NCBI GenBank assembly: GCA_963576785.1
Contig: OY756145.1
Coordinates: 2,356,001-2,420,000 of the forward strand
Origin: Chlorophyllum brunneum
Taxonomy: Eukaryota; Basidiomycota; Agaricomycetes; Agaricales; Agaricaceae
Length of the DNA: 64,000 nucleotides
Direction of reading: 5' to 3'
A program made the translations under genes and the position numbers. Below are positions 27,698 to 60,787 of this stretch, one piece after another. How positions within the stretch are numbered: the stretch's first letter is position 1; every line of letters begins with the position of its first letter. The notes beneath the pieces were generated by a model, which was given only the letters and a program-made list of their open reading frames with translations, had not been told where the DNA came from and made no database searches.

Positions 27698-30600
27698 ATG
27701 TCTGTCCCTCTGTCCTTGCTGCGTGCTCCAGTCCTTCCGAAAGGTATTCCATTGGGTCGCTGGATAGCTGACCGACTCGCAGATTCATCGCGAATCACCT
27801 CGCTCTTGGATTGTCTTTGTCCTACCTCAAACCCCGCAATATTCTCCCCAGATGCCTCACAGCGAGTTCTCACACATGAGCAGTTGCGCGCATTTATCTC
27901 GACTTTCGTGCTACCCCATTCTCCAGCGCATATATCCATAGGGCCCAACGACCGAGTTCTCGTCGCGCTCCCCAATGGTCCACTTAATGCAGTTGCAATG
28001 CTTTCAGTGGCGTGCTATCACACGTGTGCCCCTGTGAATGCTTCATGCACATCGAGCGAGCTTAGGGACGACGCAATTAGGCTAGGCGCAAAGCTGATTC
28101 TCGCTTCGAAGGATTCGGTGGAACGCCTTGGGTTGGGGTCCTTACAGGAGGAGCTAGGATGTGATGTTATCCTCGCCGAGCCACGCTCTGACGGACCATC
28201 CGGACTATTCAACATGACCTGTCTAAACAAGCAGACTATTTTCCCCCGCCGACCTTCAAGACCTCACGAACTCGATGATTTGTCCCTCGTTCTCCAAACT
28301 TCTGGAACCAGCGGGAAGAAGAAGGTAGTCCCATACTCTCTTCGTGCATTGGTCGTCGGAGCATGGGCCGTTGTTCAGTCTTGGGCCTTGAGGGAAGACG
28401 ACGTGAACCGTAAGCCTTATTTTTGAGCTCCTACAATGCAAGCTAATGCGCATTTAGTGAACATGATGCCTCTCTTCCACGTTGGCGGTTTCGTACGAAG
28501 CTTATGTGCACCTGTTCTCTCCGGAGGTAGCACCATCATGTGTAGTGGCTTTGATGCCGTTGCATTTTGGAACGTGGCCATTCAGTTCGGAGCTACTTGG
28601 TAAGAAGTCATGGTCGTCGGCGCGAGATGAACTACTGAGTTCCTAATTAGGTACTACGGCGCGCCTACTGTCCATCACGCTATCTTGTCATCTCGCCCCG
28701 CCAATATCAATGCTACAAAAGACTCTCGTATGCGCATGATCTGCAATGCAGCGGGTGGGCTATTACCCTCTTTGGCTTTGGAAATGAAGCAGGTATTCGG
28801 GAACGCGGTCATCCTTCCGTCGTACGGCATGACAGAGTGCGTCAATTATTCAAAAACTCGTGTATCTCCGCGATGGACTTAGAGCGCTGTACTCCCTATA
28901 GATGTATGCCGATAGCTTCTCCGCCGCAAGACTATCGTCTGGAACGTCCTGGTTGTTCGGGTGTTGCTTGTGGTCCAGAAGTCTCTATACGTGATCCCTC
29001 CAACATCGAACGTGAACTACTCCAAGGACGAACAGGCGCCGTTGCCGTCCGGGGTTTCCCAACGTTTTCCGGCTATGAGGTTTCCTCTGATAGGAATGTC
29101 CCTTTGGATACATCGTGCTTCTCGTCCGAAGGCTGGTTTGATACAGGTGATATGGGTTACATGGACGCTGACGGGTATGTTCTATTCTTGGAATGAGATA
29201 TTCTGAGCAACAGCTGGCAATAGATACCTATACATAACGGGTCGATCGAAGGAGATCATTAACAAGGGTGGCGAGGTCATATCTCCATTTGAGATCGAGG
29301 AAGCCATCATCACCGCGGTCAAGGATCGTGTTAAGGTTCGTTGCTTCCTATTCATGCACTCGTCATCACACTGACTATATGTGTAGAGTACATTGGCGTT
29401 CGCCATAGAACACGACGTCTTACAGGAAGCGATCGGTGTCGTAATCGTTTGCTCGCCTGGTAAACCTCGGATTGGCCTCCATCAGTTACAAGATAACCTT
29501 CGGTAAGTGCATCGTCTTTGGCTCAAGAACGTGATATAACTATGCCAACAGGGATCACCTTCACCCGTCTAAATGGCCCACAGTGATTATTTACATGGAT
29601 GATCTTCCAAAAAATATGTGAGTCCTCGACACTTGTGTATTGTAAACAGTCCCAACTATTGAACTCCGTCACTAGCACCGGCAAAGCTGTCCGCATTAAA
29701 CTAGCGAAACGGCTTGGTCTTCCACAATTTCATGACGGAATTCCGGTAAACCAGCGTCATTTCGAAGCACAGGCTCCGTCACCTCGTGCATCCCTATCCG
29801 ACTCGATCACTTGTTCCCGCGTTTCAATGTCTCCCAAAGGGATGGAGTTACTCCTCGGACGCATGGAGGAAGTCAAGGATTTCGTCCTCAATATATGCTC
29901 GGACGGATCTGCTGAATTGTATTTGAGTATTGATCCCAAATGTCTGTTGAATTCAGAGGCTTTCAAAGCCATAATTTCGCAGGAGATCGACGGTTATATG
30001 GTCCCCGATACCGTTTACCTACTCCACGGTTCCCTTGCACGATACAAAACTGGCGAAGCGAACTTCCAGGAAGCTCGAAGAAATTCCGCCCAGTTCACCT
30101 CCGCCTCCATGTCAAAAACTGAAATTCGCGTTCGAGACCTCGTGGCTGAGATTCTTTCATTGGACCCTGCCAATGTCACAGCCCAATCCGACTTCTTTCT
30201 CATCGGTGGCAACTCTCTGCTTCTCGGGAAGCTGGCGTATCATATCCGTAAAGAAACGGGCGCACAGGTTGGGGTTTCGTCCCTCTTTAACAACAGCACT
30301 ATCGCGGGGATGGCAGTCCTTGTAGACACTGATGCTCCGAAGGGCTCGTTCATCTCGGTCGACGAGAAAGATGAACGACACCGCCACTCTGCTGCAACGT
30401 CCATGACGGCCTTCGGATTCGAATATGACTACGACCAGGAATATCAAGTCTTTGAGAAGGCCAAGGCACGCGGTCAGAATCACCCCCTCTGTTTGATCAC
30501 TCAGGCGATCCCTGTCTTGTTCTTCTACCCACTGAAGGCTGCGCTGACTTGTAAGTGGACGGCATACCTCCTGAATTGTGTCTCAAAGCTTTCCTCTCAG

Positions 30601-33414
30601 GGTCACTCCTACTGTTTACTCTTTCCTATATTGCACAATTCCTCAACGGAGACTTCTGGATTAAGTTGGGCACGCTCTTGGCAGCTATCGTTGCGTCAAG
30701 AGCAGCGGTCAGAATCGTCGCTCCAATGATCGCGATACTGTTCAAGTGGATTGTGGTCGGGAGATATAGGTCAGGGACATATCGCATGTAGGTTAATTAT
30801 CCGGGTCTTAGTGACGTGCATTCATCGATCCCGCAGGTGGTCTGTCTACTACCTCCGATGTTGGCTAGTAGATCAAAGTGTCAGGTTTGTCTTTCACTCT
30901 TCAGCGACTTCCAACGTCCGTCTAAATGCTTACAGGTCTGCCGGAAAAGGCCTTTTCGCTCTTCACCCTTCGTTGACCATCATCTATTATCGCCTACTTG
31001 GCGCCAAGATCGGCAAGAACGTGACCATCGATTCCAAAGCCAAGCTCGGGGAATACGATATGCTAACCCTTCATGATGGGTGTCGTATTGATAAGTCGCA
31101 CATCAGGGGCTTCTGCGTTGAGCGAGAGGGGTATTTCCGCTTGGAGCCTATTACTATTGGGAAATGTGCCGTCATTAATACCTTCACAGCTATCTCTCCC
31201 GGGGCCATCATTTCCGACAGTGCCGTGTATGGCCCTCACGCATCTTCCCATGACCCCCCATCATTGAAGTCGTACGCCGCATATAACCGTACATTGTCCC
31301 CAGGACCTCACTGGGCTCTTCAAGTCTTGGTTGCGTGGCCGCTCATATTTTTGGTCGTAGCAATATCTCGTAAGTACTACCCCACGCGAAGCGATGACGA
31401 ACCTCACCTATCTTAGATATTCCTTGGATGTTCTGTCTCTGGCTCATGATCGAAGAGGTGCAGGTTACAAACCCCGGCTTGAACGCTCTTGAAGCAGTTA
31501 TCTGGTGGTTCGCTGATCCGCGCCGTATTGCGTATCATACGTTGTCTCGCGTTGTTCGTGCCATCGGCACCCCTGTGGTTCAATTAATTCTCGGAATTGC
31601 GCTCAAGCGTCTCATGGGACTCAACAGGGAGTGTCCGGCGGAAGAATACACTCAGATGATCCTCCTGCGGCGTTACATCAACTCGAGCATCCTCTCGCAC
31701 GAGACCTTACATAGTGCGTTCTCCATCCTCGGTGCTCACTACGAGTGTGTTTCTGTAAGTGTTCCATTCAAACGACATTCCGAAATCGGGGACTGAATCT
31801 CCTGATCATAGATTGCATACCGCGCCATGGGAGCGAAGATTGGGAAGCGCATCTACTGGCCTGGTTCCGGAATCGTTTGTCAGGACCCCGAACTTCTCGA
31901 AATTGGAGATGATGTTGTGTTTGGGTCACGCTCAGAGATCCTCACGAACGATCGATTGGGAACCAAGAAAGTGGTTATCGGAAGTGGAGGTAACGGAATT
32001 CATGATGGGTCTTTCCTAGTCTGACTCTTTTCAGCGATGATCGCAGATCGCGTGGTTTTGCTCCCAGGATGCCAGGTTGGTCGACGGACAGTAATGGGCT
32101 CAGGTGCTCTCGGAAAACGAGATACCGTCTACGAAGATGGTTCAACATGGATGGGATGTGGTGAGCATTTTCTGGATCACCATACTCGTGCCTGACCTTT
32201 GACCAAGAAAATGGCGATGCAATCTGCTTTGGGAGGAACGACAAGGATTTCGCGGAGAAGGATGTCACCTCTACACCCTTTGGCCGTGCGTTTTACGAAG
32301 GAAAAGCTAACTACTGGGTATTCCCATATTGGTTCATCCTGGCAACAAACATGACCATTACCGCTGTCTCCGCCGCTTACTGGTCAATAAGCCCTGTTGC
32401 TGCCGCCCAACTTCTGCGACATATTCACATGCAGCTCAACCACACCGGTCTTTTCGAGCCGACCTGGTATCGACTGGGTGTTTTGTACATCCTCATCGCC
32501 ATCTGCTTCATCATCGTACTCAACTTTCAGGCCGCCGTCGCTGTCTTTTGGGCGATCGCAACCAAGTGGCTTGTTATTGGTGAGCGTCACCAGGGACGGT
32601 ATGAATGGGACAAGAGCGACTACTGTCAGCGATGGCAACTGCACCTTTCGTTGTGTCGTCTTCTGTACAAAGGTTATGGTACAGGAGGCATCCTGGGTCA
32701 TCTGAATGGTTCTGCATATATCGTCTGGTTCTATCGTGCTCTTGGTGCGACTATCGGGAAGAACTGTGCGCTTTTCGCTGGAGGTATCAGTGGTCTGATG
32801 ACCGAGCCTGATCTTGTTGAGGTGAGCCAACTTTGCTTCTTCCGCTGGAATCGTAAGTCGTGACTATCGCTTCAGATCGGACACGACGTTAGCCTGGACG
32901 ACTGTTCAGTTGTGGCGCATATCAATTCGAGGGGAATATTCGCACTGAACCATCTCAAAATCGGCAACGGATGCGCTCTGCGCTCAGGCTCGCGGTTACT
33001 CTCAGGGGCTTCGATGGAGGACAAGAGTATGCTCTGCGAGCACACACTCCTCGTCTCTGGTGATATTGCGGAATCCGGATACGTCTATGCTGGCTGGCCC
33101 GCACAACGACAAAAAGAGGAGGGTGTTGAAGAACCATCGACTTCGCCAGGTGCCCAGCTCATTTGTCCTCTGTGTCGCCAATTCCCACAACAGGGAGTGG
33201 TGACGGCCTGCGGGCATCTGTTCTGTGACCGGTACGAGCGACAGTTTATCCTGTATCTACTGTACACTAACCCTTCCCTCGTGTCAGATGCATCAACCAG
33301 GTAATCACAAACCAACGCCGTTGCCCCGTATGTCGTGTTCCATCTTCCAGCACTCAATTGCGCCAAGTTCGCCCTTCATTCGCGATCAGTGATCGCAGCC
33401 ACGACGGCCATTGA
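27698..33414 (+). CDS. Pls/PosA-like NRPS (A-T-TM-triple beta-helix) fused to a RING finger
   Basis: About 17 exons give roughly 1,690 residues from ATG 27698. Adenylation domain (about 1-540): TSGTSGKKKVVP, MMPLFHVGG, PSYGMTE, GWFDTGDMGYMDADG, YLYITGRSKEIINKGGE and STGKAVR. Carrier domain near 715: FFLIGGNSLLLGK (phosphopantetheine Ser). Several membrane helices follow, then three hexapeptide beta-helix modules (IIYYRLLGAKIGKNVTID; AYRAMGAKIGKRIYW; WFYRALGATIGKNCALF) separated by further helices. This is the Pls/PosA plan, exemplified by bacterial epsilon-poly-L-lysine synthetase, where the enzyme activates one substrate and joins it at the membrane without classical condensation domains. 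After VYAGWPAQRQKEEG the same exon continues into CPLC-x11-CGH-LF-CDRC-x10-CPVC, a complete C3HC4 RING, ending at TGA 33412-33414. The adenylation substrate cannot be read by eye. Confidence 0.85.
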
Positions 33415-33895: not shown

Positions 33896-35422
33896 CTATA
33901 TGACGAACATGTCCAGGAACCGAAGCTCTACGCACCCGCTCTCTAACGCTGCTTGGGTCTCTACCAGCTTCGCCACGGATGGCTCTGGCCGATATATGTC
34001 GAGTCTGAAGGGTTTCTCTTTACTGCCCCTCCGCCGCCTCATCAAATCCCGCAGTTTCATCAAGTAACTCCAGACCGTAGTGGACTGGATCGACAGCGTA
34101 GCGAGATGGGGTAGATGCCCTAGTTTACCACATGGATGCACCACACTCAGCATGACGACCACATCAAGAGTGAACGTCTCGAAACAATCGCGCAATACTA
34201 ACTCCTTCATAGCACGCACGTCGTGGAAAAGCTGTGCCAAGGCTCCCGGGGTCCAGTCCCTCCAATTCACCAGTTCGAGCTTGCGGAGGTCTTTTGGCAA
34301 CCGGTGGAAAAACTCGATGATAGGCTGCGGCGAAATCGTACGCCTGTAATTAGCATCGCCATACAACTGCAGCACCTCCAGCCCAGGTAACTCAAGTTGC
34401 TGGAATAACGATCTATTGTTGTTATCGTTGTACAGGGTCCATGTGAAGCTTTTCAAGTGCGGGAACATGGTAGGGCCGGAAAGAATGTCAGCGGTCCCCG
34501 AACCTCGCGTCACGATGGGTGCCCGGCAGTGAGCCTCGACGATATTGGGGCACTGTTTGAGTACACTGATGCAGACATCTAACAATGTATCGAAGAAATC
34601 TAAAACGGTGAGACTGTGGGGTGGAGAGATCTCGATTGAATGCCAGATGCCTCCTAGTGCCAATTGACGCAGTTGTGGGAGGTTGAAGAGCTTTACTGGT
34701 GCAGGGGTGACCACGTCATTCATACCTTCCAACGAAAGGCACTGAAGTTGATGGAAAGATGAGCTCGAAATGCGACGGAGCCATGAGATGGGTGGGTCAT
34801 AAAGACGTAACATCTTTATTCTTCCGGCTTTGCCCTTCAAGCTGAACAATTCTGAAGACCCCCTACTCCGAACCGAGGACTCCGATGTCTTTTCTTTTCT
34901 AAACTGCAAATCAATTGCCAAAGGCAATTGTCCAGATCTCTTCCAGCAGAGCTCCATCATCTCGCTATCACTCTGCACGGTGTTGGATCTGATGTTCAAA
35001 ACCAACGTCGTCCAGAGCGAAGGTGTCGATAAAATTATGTCCCTCCAAAGAGAAGAAACACTAGCACATCGGATAAGAGACAAGTTCTTTTCGATTTCTT
35101 TGCGAAAATTGAAATTCCGAAAGTCATCGAGAGAGGTCGGTTCGGCGATGGGACTAGCAACATGATGGATTATAAGCATCAAGGTCTCTGGGGGAAGATT
35201 CTTGGTCGATGAACGAACGGCATTTAAGCGACGGAGTTTGGAGACGCGCTGGTGCTGGAGATGTTTTATATGATGGTCTATTTTGAGGGCGCCGAGCTCG
35301 AGTTCGAGGGCTTCAATTTCCTCATTATCAACTCCACAGTAGCCACACTGCGAACAGCTGGTCGCCGTGCAGGTGTCAGCTAGGGATTTTTGCGTTTCGT
35401 GAGTTCGTTGTGTGAGTGTCAT
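33896..35422 (-). CDS. F-box protein (Agaricomycete F-box-like family)
   Basis: Single exon, 508 residues, ATG at 35422. A Cys cluster (CSQCGYCG) near residue 25 and a predicted coiled coil (EEIEALELELGALKIDHHIK) precede the F-box, which starts LPPETLMLIIHHVASPI and continues through CASVSSLWRDIILSTPSLWT. The rest consists of irregular leucine-rich segments, as in substrate-binding regions of SCF ubiquitin ligases, where the F-box binds Skp1. The family is greatly expanded in mushrooms, and targets are unknown. It is related in layout to the plus-strand F-box genes at 48 and 52 kb but clearly diverged from them. Confidence 0.8.
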   Translation of the reverse strand: MTLTQRTHETQKSLADTCTATSCSQCGYCGVDNEEIEALELELGALKIDHHIKHLQHQRVSKLRRLNAVRSSTKNLPPETLMLIIHHVASPIAEPTSLDDFRNFNFRKEIEKNLSLIRCASVSSLWRDIILSTPSLWTTLVLNIRSNTVQSDSEMMELCWKRSGQLPLAIDLQFRKEKTSESSVRSRGSSELFSLKGKAGRIKMLRLYDPPISWLRRISSSSFHQLQCLSLEGMNDVVTPAPVKLFNLPQLRQLALGGIWHSIEISPPHSLTVLDFFDTLLDVCISVLKQCPNIVEAHCRAPIVTRGSGTADILSGPTMFPHLKSFTWTLYNDNNNRSLFQQLELPGLEVLQLYGDANYRRTISPQPIIEFFHRLPKDLRKLELVNWRDWTPGALAQLFHDVRAMKELVLRDCFETFTLDVVVMLSVVHPCGKLGHLPHLATLSIQSTTVWSYLMKLRDLMRRRRGSKEKPFRLDIYRPEPSVAKLVETQAALESGCVELRFLDMFVI

Positions 35423-38016: not shown

Positions 38017-41021
<3,005 letters not shown>

Positions 41022-58779: not shown

Positions 58780-60787
58780 ATGCTAGAGGTATCTTCGATC
58801 AACGTCTTCGCTGTTGCACTATCTGCACTTTTCCTGTTCGTTGTGCAGAGCATTAAATCAATTTTCTTCCATGGTTTGTCCAAGTACCCTGGCCCTCCCT
58901 TGGCTGCCGCCACCTCCCTCTACAGGGCCTACTACGACATCATCAAGGACGGTGGGTGGGTGGAGCACCTCTTCTCGCTCCACGAGAAATACGGTGAATT
59001 TCGTTGCCTGATTTCCAGCCTTCCCTAATTAATATTCCTCTAGGCACCATCGTCAGAGTTGGCCCTAACGAGGTGAGGGCACCGACTTACCAAAGTCTTA
59101 TACACTCACCGAACATATCTTTTAGCTCCATTTCAGCGATCCCAGAGCCTACAATGATATCTACGGTATAGGAACCCGCTTCATCAAACAGAAGGGCATG
59201 TACTCCTGCTTTGCGACCGACAAATCAGTCTTTGCAATGCACGACCACAGACTAGCAATGCAGCTCCGTACTGCGATCGGTCCCTTCTTTTCTCGAAGGG
59301 CGATCCTGAGCCTTGAGGATGTCGTTCAAGGCAAAGTATGTCTCAAGCTCATTACCTTTTTCTCCCATAACCGATTTTTTTTGCCCTTAGATCGACCACC
59401 TTATTTCTCGTCTTCTCTGTCACACCTCCACCCCGGCGAATTTGGACCTAGCGTTCCGCTCCCTCTCTCTCGAGGTCATCACCACTTACTGCTTTGCCCG
59501 TTCATCCCACGCACTGGACGCCCCAAATTTTCGGCACCCTATCCTCTCGGCTATTGATAACACACTACCCATGATCTGGATCTTCAAACACTTTCCCCTT
59601 ATCCAGAAAATCCTGTTAAATGTACCGGAATGTTTTGCGTCTGTCCTGAAGCCCAGCACAACAGGAATCCTCGAGCAAAAAAGGCTGATTAAAGATCAGA
59701 TTGATGAGATCATGAAGGACCCGGAGAGCTTGTGCGACGGTGGACACGAAACTATTTATCACTACTTTCTAAATCCTGGGGACCGAGAGGGGGTCGATGT
59801 CACCCCAAAATCTGGTGCTAGTGGCACTCGTCGACCGGGAGCGGGGGACGGAGACGCAGACACCAAAGAAGGATCCATAAGTGAAAAGGCTGTGAAACAA
59901 CGCCTTCCACCACTCTCGCGAGCATATCTCCTCGACGAAGGTCTCTACATGCGTTTCGCGGGAAGCGATACCGTCGGAAATGTGTGCACGGTTGCACTAT
60001 ACCATATCCTCACTAATCCGCACGTTCATCAAGCTCTGTTGCGGGAGCTGATGGAAATCTGGCCAGACAAAGATCTTCTGGTTGGATACGAAAAACTCGA
60101 AAAACTCCCTTATCTCGTAAGCTGATCCTTATTTCCTTCAAATTCCGTCCCCTAAACTTCACGGCTTTGCAGACGGCTGTAATCAAAGAATCGCTCCGTA
60201 TGGGCCACGGTGTCGTTAGCCCGCTTCCCCGTATCATCGGTCCCTCAGATGCAGAAATCCTGGGGATGACAATTCCTGCTGGGGTGCGTATACCCTCCGC
60301 CTGCCAAAATGCCAACCTAATGGTTCACTTTGCGTTCTATAGACAGTCGTCTCAATGGGTGCACCTATCCTACATTGCAACCCAGAAATATTCCCCGATC
60401 CAATCTGCTTCATCCCTGAAAGATGGATGGGAGAAGTGAATCAGAGCCTGGATAAGTACTTAGTTGCTTTTTCAAAGGGTCCCAGAAGTTGTTTGGGCAT
60501 CAAGTGAGTTTATCCCCTTCACGTCCGCAGACAGGTGATAAACTTCGGTCTCTGATTAACACCATAGCCTCGCCTGGTGTGAACTCTACCTTACAGTCGC
60601 CAATGTAGTTCGCAAACTTGACTTGAATCCTGACAACGCAACGTGAGTATCGGATGCTACCGGTGTTATGCCTTGGTTGATTTACGTCTTTCACAATAGA
60701 CTCGATAGTATAAGCTTCCGCGAGTATTTCGTTGCAGTACATCGTGGCCGCCATTTCCACGCCCACGTCCAATCGCGGAAATTCTGA
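58780..60787 (+). CDS. Cytochrome P450 monooxygenase
   Basis: About eight exons from ATG 58780 to TGA 60785-60787. The N terminus carries a membrane anchor (INVFAVALSALFLFVVQSI) and the proline hinge (YPGPPLAA). Later come IVRVGPNELHFSDP, the I-helix RFAGSDTVGN, the K-helix ExxR in KESLRMG, PERW, and the heme-binding loop FSKGPRSCLGIN with the axial Cys. All core P450 motifs are present, so the enzyme is probably active with an NADPH-P450 reductase at the ER. The style resembles the trichodiene-oxygenase-like clans common in mushrooms; the substrate is unknown. A Gly/Arg/Asp-rich insert (around GASGTRRPGAGDGDADTKEG) sits just before the I-helix and is unusual for length. No other obvious metabolic cluster genes adjoin. 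Confidence 0.88.

Follow-up and report, generated by a model that had tools for sequence, protein, structure and literature searches.

Can a membrane-bound synthetase and a RING finger belong to one protein, and if so, what would the RING be for? This question is raised by a gene on the forward strand of the 64,000-nucleotide stretch of Chlorophyllum brunneum DNA analysed here (contig OY756145.1; hereafter, the window), in which the original prediction had placed adenylation, carrier, membrane-helix and beta-helix modules ahead of a C-terminal RING. Based on the gene model and its homologues, the synthetase-RING fusion itself is almost certainly real. The explanation that we prefer, at a probability of about 0.42, is that the RING may serve as a regulatory module resembling a ubiquitin ligase (E3), positioned on the cytosolic face and targeting the enzyme itself or its surroundings in the membrane. 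What the analysis establishes is a single open gene, its domain order, its conservation and its pattern of presence and absence, whereas all activity is inferred.

The region 27698–33414 (+) is predicted to splice into 17 exons, running from an ATG at 27698 to a stop codon that ends at 33414 and encoding 1629 amino acids (aa) without an internal stop; its 16 introns are all GT-AG and 45–65 nucleotides long. The non-RING domains are distributed across exons 1–16. The proposal that beta-helix and RING share one exon holds for the end of the third beta-helix and the RING as far as CGHLFCDR (exon 16, 32876–33231) and fails for the remainder of the RING, which is encoded by exon 17, intron 16 interrupting the motif. 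Read through into this intron, the frame stays open for 24 residues, counted from the split Arg codon, before a stop. A homologue from Macrolepiota fuliginosa (P0001) is also 1629 aa long and collinear, with 86% identity across the last 390 aa including the RING, in agreement with the single gene originally proposed. Using P0001 as a query against the C. brunneum genome (38.9 Mb, 14 contigs), we found an exon-by-exon match at the synthetase locus, including exon 17 (against P0001 residues 1586–1629, E 2.8e-14). A second close copy of the synthetase was rejected, because the matches elsewhere in this genome were weak (best E 2.2e-6).

The RING is a genuine RING-HC finger, as proposed: the pattern CPLC-x11-CGH-x2-CDRC-x10-CPVC is exact at aa 1566–1603, with eight ligands in RING spacing, and Pfam zf-C3HC4 matches these residues above its cut-off (5.8e-8), the families with matches above cut-off being PF00097, PF13923, PF13920, PF13639 and PF14634. 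A chance motif was ruled out, given that a tight C3HC4 arrangement appeared in 0 of 20000 shuffles of the window protein. When the window is translated in six frames without splicing, no complete RING pattern is found. We found no account of the fusion in the open-licence literature, nor any RING described on an enzyme of the Pls/PosA-like type, in keeping with the earlier remark that no described enzyme has both parts; PMC8070225 and PMC5573122 proved unrelated. The fusion is undescribed as far as found, not unseen, because the architecture is already present among the precomputed domains of protein databases.

To place the fusion among relatives, the last 390 aa were used as a query, giving 705 matching proteins, the best 120 of which are listed (121 sequences with the window); a second search gave 954 proteins at E <= 0.001 among 7992 candidates scored, again with the best 120 listed, and both searches pooled contain 139 listed homologues. 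Among the 121 sequences, 65 have an intact C3HC4 RING, 16 a RING broken inside, three a degenerate one and 37 none, although 65/121 is not a family-wide frequency because a 390-aa ranking favours RING-bearing proteins. These classes follow correction by eye of script labels (65 full, 14 half, 42 neither), in which P0004 and P0005 were changed from none to half, and P0032, P0070 and P0080 from none to degenerate. All 65 intact RINGs sit in the same place, downstream of the GWP at the end of the beta-helix region, and the copies come from 21 named genera besides the window. Homologues with both parts in one protein, which the original prediction had called for, are thus common in the list (64/120), one of them (P0012) being a partial record without the adenylation domain; the two parts as separate genes, named beforehand as a refutation, were not seen among the 120. 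The RING is absent from all 19 proteins new in the second search. When the last 118 aa of P0064 were used as a query, only P0064 itself was found (33 candidates), and breadth was measured within the 139 listed homologues.

The 65 RINGs share their ligands by construction, because they were picked by the Cys/His pattern. Non-ligand letters are kept as well: Pro after the first Cys (59/65), the adjoining hydrophobic residue (61/65), Ile, Leu or Val after the sixth Cys (65/65) and Pro after the seventh (61/65). The RING has a mean pairwise identity of 0.57, versus 0.25 for the preceding linker (600 sampled pairs of the 65), and shuffling the non-Cys/His letters of the RING lowers its identity from 0.56 to 0.30 (300 pairs). 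This pattern is what purifying selection would give.

Eight of the 139 listed homologue models, including one from Agaricus bisporus (P0002, P0003, P0024, P0061, P0067, P0074, P0077 and P0102), stop no more than two residues from the fifth Cys of the RING, the site of intron 16 in the window gene. Intron retention in gene prediction is a simple and likely explanation, and a genuine short isoform is possible. The Coprinopsis cinerea model, P0118, likewise breaks off within the RING. P0070 and P0080 (both Lentinula) and P0032 (Crucibulum) contain RING remnants short of zinc ligands and are perhaps decaying copies. Many relatives from Polyporales and Gloeophyllales end instead in a charged, heptad-like tail with a coiled-coil look as judged by eye (P0100, P0103, P0106, P0107, P0111, P0112, P0114, P0116, P0117, P0123–P0126 and P0128, among others), and the C-terminus of the family may be a site where RING and coiled-coil-like tail are swapped.

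Two gene trees were built by a quick method with no outgroup, the first (121 rows) leaving out the tail and the second retaining 102 rows after 38 Mycena rows of 140 were dropped. Both place Agaricus bisporus and Macrolepiota fuliginosa (Agaricaceae) nearest to the window and nest RING-less members among RING-bearing ones, requiring 13 and 10 changes of RING state, respectively. In the 102-row tree, 31 RING-less rows, among them Polyporales, Gloeophyllales, Jaapia and Punctularia, group together (support 88) and adjoin Taiwanofungus (with RING) and Plicaturopsis (without), and the other 69 rows (Agaricales, Athelia) include 54 of the 55 rows with an intact, broken or degenerate RING. RING-less within that side are the Armillaria group, Rhodocollybia, Marasmius fiardii and several Mycena. 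Taiwanofungus belongs to Polyporales, Plicatura(opsis) to Amylocorticiales, Athelia to Atheliales and Jaapia to Jaapiales. Some RING-less Mycena tails retain the linker and end just ahead of the first Cys (P0086 beside P0062), as expected for loss; a model error could look alike. The only RING-bearing polypore among the listed homologues is P0064 from Taiwanofungus camphoratus, whose closest relative among the matches listed is a RING-less Plicaturopsis protein (71% identity over 83%); its RING may be of older origin or may have been transferred, or the record may carry a wrong label. Because RING rows are spread over the trees with RING-less members among them, the RING is an old feature of mushrooms and seems to be dispensable.

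That many related mushrooms keep the fusion and others are without the RING speaks for a regulator that is built into the enzyme and can be dispensed with, not for an accident. Since relatives without it are many, the RING is probably needless for the synthetic chemistry. Three membrane-helix pairs come before the RING, so it would lie on the same side of the membrane as the adenylation and carrier domains. There it could bind a ubiquitin-conjugating enzyme (E2). Its conserved tail may also let it dimerise with another RING, in the manner of RNF4 and BRE1, and the most likely job of the RING would be to ubiquitinate the enzyme or close membrane neighbours, setting the level or location of the enzyme. 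Using 61 aa of a Mycena member in place of the window RING, the nearest solved relatives were RNF4 (3.7e-16, a two-RING chain), RING2-BMI1, BRCA1 and BRE1. The family resembles RNF4 and BRE1 in having a C3HC4 RING and a short tail, which the alignments of the Mycena member reach (IY or RIY; for BRE1, ARDLTRIY versus AHDFHRIY), whereas it differs in that its RING is joined to a biosynthetic enzyme and in the residue following the last Cys (see below). In RNF4-type RINGs, the tail helps to hold the donor ubiquitin across the dimer. The tail motif in the family is L-x-[RK]-[IV]-[YH]-[PL]-S-F, with Phe in 59 of 65 rows. RING blocks in the predicted model of P0012 have a predicted local distance difference test score of 77–93.

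Several observations weigh against this regulatory reading. The linchpin residue, which follows the last Cys, is Arg or Lys in only 5/65 RINGs, the window (Arg) being one of the five, and the residue at this place is otherwise Met (24), Ser (12), Thr (10) or another, and missing in one short row; because of this rarity, most family members may have little ligase activity or none. A basic linchpin is not universal among E3s, and a ligase specific for one E2 would fit as well as a RING used for pairing. The window tail, LRQVRPSF, is off the motif twice, with Q in place of R/K and R in place of Y/H. Conservation of the RING is lower than that of the third beta-helix (0.57 versus 0.72, 600 sampled pairs), and the tail lies lower still, between linker and RING (0.35, 579 pairs). 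Furthermore, some of the 37 RING-less records may be wrong or incomplete gene models rather than losses, and self-targeting is proposed as the simplest choice of substrate.

A close rival, somewhat less likely, is that the RING supports dimerisation or protein binding as a structural zinc module and in most members is a poor ubiquitin ligase or none at all. The rarity of the basic linchpin would fit such a module, as would the absence of zinc ligands from the Lentinula and Crucibulum copies and the coiled-coil-like tails of many Polyporales and Gloeophyllales, perhaps another dimeriser. However, the RING positions that we take, from known RINGs, to face the E2 retain their character in the family, the window RING has the linchpin Arg, and BRE1, an active E3, has Asn at the linchpin place in the alignment.

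It is rather unlikely that the RING ubiquitinates a specific partner in the same membrane, such as a transporter or an acceptor, and thereby links product supply with ubiquitin signals. The RING sits beside a membrane enzyme in the P0012 model and its letters are conserved, as a partner-directed ligase would have it, but among the 20 of 41 long open frames of the window that were scanned, no gene cluster was recognised around the synthetase gene, and the named neighbours (F-box-like, CDC48, P450) form no evident partner set.

The regulatory reading leaves the synthetic chemistry to the rest of the protein. Pfam matches in the window protein comprise AMP-binding (aa 80–405, 7.6e-40), PP-binding (PF00550, aa 687–749, 1.4e-10) and Hexapep (aa 1217–1247, 1.6e-11, a single stretch only); the three beta-helix domains and three membrane-helix pairs come from the predicted model of P0012, not of the window protein. 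In that model, structure-search matches cover the carrier-protein and beta-helix parts. The GGNS Ser is presumably the functional residue of the carrier domain. TIGR02353 matches the terminal region with 183 bits in P0001 and 190 bits in P0012, below the curated cut-off of 423, which is a weak test for fungi in a model built for prokaryotes. The Pls/PosA-like layout of the original prediction (adenylation, carrier, helix pairs, beta-helices) is borne out by Pfam, the TIGR02353 match and the P0012 model. The protein shares its domain order, three helix pairs and three beta-helices with the Pls/PosA enzymes (epsilon-poly-L-lysine and delta-poly-L-ornithine synthetases, TIGR02353; fungal Epls of Epichloe), for which PMC10522769 gives the same terminal-region layout from a predicted model. 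By contrast, the mushroom protein adds a RING, scores under the TIGR02353 cut-off and has an adenylation domain of the coenzyme A (CoA) ligase type without the amino-group Asp.

The best solved relatives of this adenylation domain are the oxalate-CoA ligases 6qjz, 5ie0 and 8aff (E 4.8e-55 for 6qjz to 2.6e-47), and its sequence relation and core motifs, aligned with 6qjz, place it with ANL enzymes of the acyl-CoA-ligase type. Compared to oxalate- and malonyl-CoA ligases (plant AAE3, yeast Pcs60), the TSGT, Y-MTE and C-terminal GK motifs are common to both, whereas the pocket-side SCSASLAP or similar is NAAGGLLP in the window protein, and the domain is fused to a carrier and membrane region. In Pls/PosA synthetases, an Asp binds the alpha-amino group and a Glu the terminal amine, according to PMC10522769. 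In our alignment, Rhizobium Pls has both residues, and 13/13 family members have His at the Asp position and Arg at the Glu position, the latter adjoining a gap and thus less sure; an HVGG or HIGG motif occupies the Asp site in 129 of the 139 listed homologues, with no motif match in 10. Because of the CoA-ligase-type domain and the His replacing the amino-group Asp, a poly-amino-acid product is unlikely, and the amino-acid-type polymer or conjugate first suggested is not supported. By homology, the substrate that the adenylation domain activates and loads onto the carrier would be a carboxylic acid, and probably one other than an alpha-amino acid; by fold, the membrane-anchored, acyltransferase-type beta-helix region would hand the acyl group to an acceptor.

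These findings make a diamino-acid polymer synthetase of the epsilon-polylysine type carrying a RING, close to what was first pictured, highly improbable, even though TIGR02353 matches the terminal region, a fungal Pls exists in Epichloe (PMC7179176) and bacterial Pls/PosA-type genes align with P0012: the amino-activation Asp is replaced, the adenylation domain has its closest solved relatives among oxalate- and malonate-CoA ligases, and 183 bits falls below the cut-off. The bacterial genes are on plasmids, where 42 records match P0012 (e.g., residues 84–1026, 22% identity), and the alignments of the 15 listed stop at or before P0012 residue 1026, short of the P0012 RING, which lies around residue 1044. 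Scanning bacterial genomes produced 117 pattern matches, and tblastn confirmed none of them.

It is more improbable still that E2~ubiquitin bound to the RING meets the acyl-loaded carrier and acyltransferase region, with the acyl group passing to ubiquitin itself or to a protein undergoing ubiquitination at the membrane; if true, one machine would unite adenylate-carrier chemistry with the ubiquitin system. Least probable is an artefact of a wrong gene model or of an assembly joining two adjacent genes: the fusion rests on a gene model from DNA and 16/121 sequences are broken within the RING, but the 64 listed fusions were annotated in many genomes and the RING intron recurs as the stopping point of eight homologue models.

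Features of the synthetase-RING gene in the window
Feature	Position	Strand	Evidence
Whole gene: adenylation, carrier, membrane/beta-helix terminal region, RING	27698..33414	+	Spliced model; P0001 collinearity; own-genome match
Adenylation (ANL) domain, about aa 1-545, exons 1-8 with introns	27698..29703	+	Pfam AMP-binding; oxalate-CoA ligase structures
Carrier (PP-binding) domain, aa 687-749, GGNS from aa 713	30127..30315	+	PF00550; homologue-model matches
Terminal region, about aa 800-1544, introns included: membrane helices, three beta-helix domains, GWP end	30466..33100	+	
C3HC4 RING finger, aa 1566-1603, exons 16 and 17 around intron 16	33164..33333	+	Pfam; homologue conservation
Intron 16, interrupting the RING after CGHLFCDR	33232..33287	+	GT-AG; homologue model ends; exon 17 match
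Post-RING tail, 26 aa, with LRQVRPSF, then stop	33334..33414	+	Family motif; RNF4/BRE1 alignments

Directly downstream of the synthetase gene and convergent with it lies a 508-aa open frame (33896–35422, −) with an F-box-like domain (7.6e-7). About 5 kb downstream, 38226–38927 and 39690–40445 (−) are AAA ATPase exons of a CDC48/p97 gene, the latter with Cdc48 as its best PDB match (E 1.3e-129); the linkage of this ubiquitin-pathway gene to the synthetase is probably a coincidence. A partial cytochrome P450 gene is located at 59442–60125 (+; 8.4e-8).

The fusion marks a large mushroom enzyme family, the 954 proteins of the second search, not necessarily with one function, for which we found no substrate or product in the open-licence literature. 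The scattered absences of the RING provide natural comparisons between enzymes with and without it, and a conserved RING within a carrier-protein synthetase would give built-in ubiquitin control of a biosynthetic enzyme.

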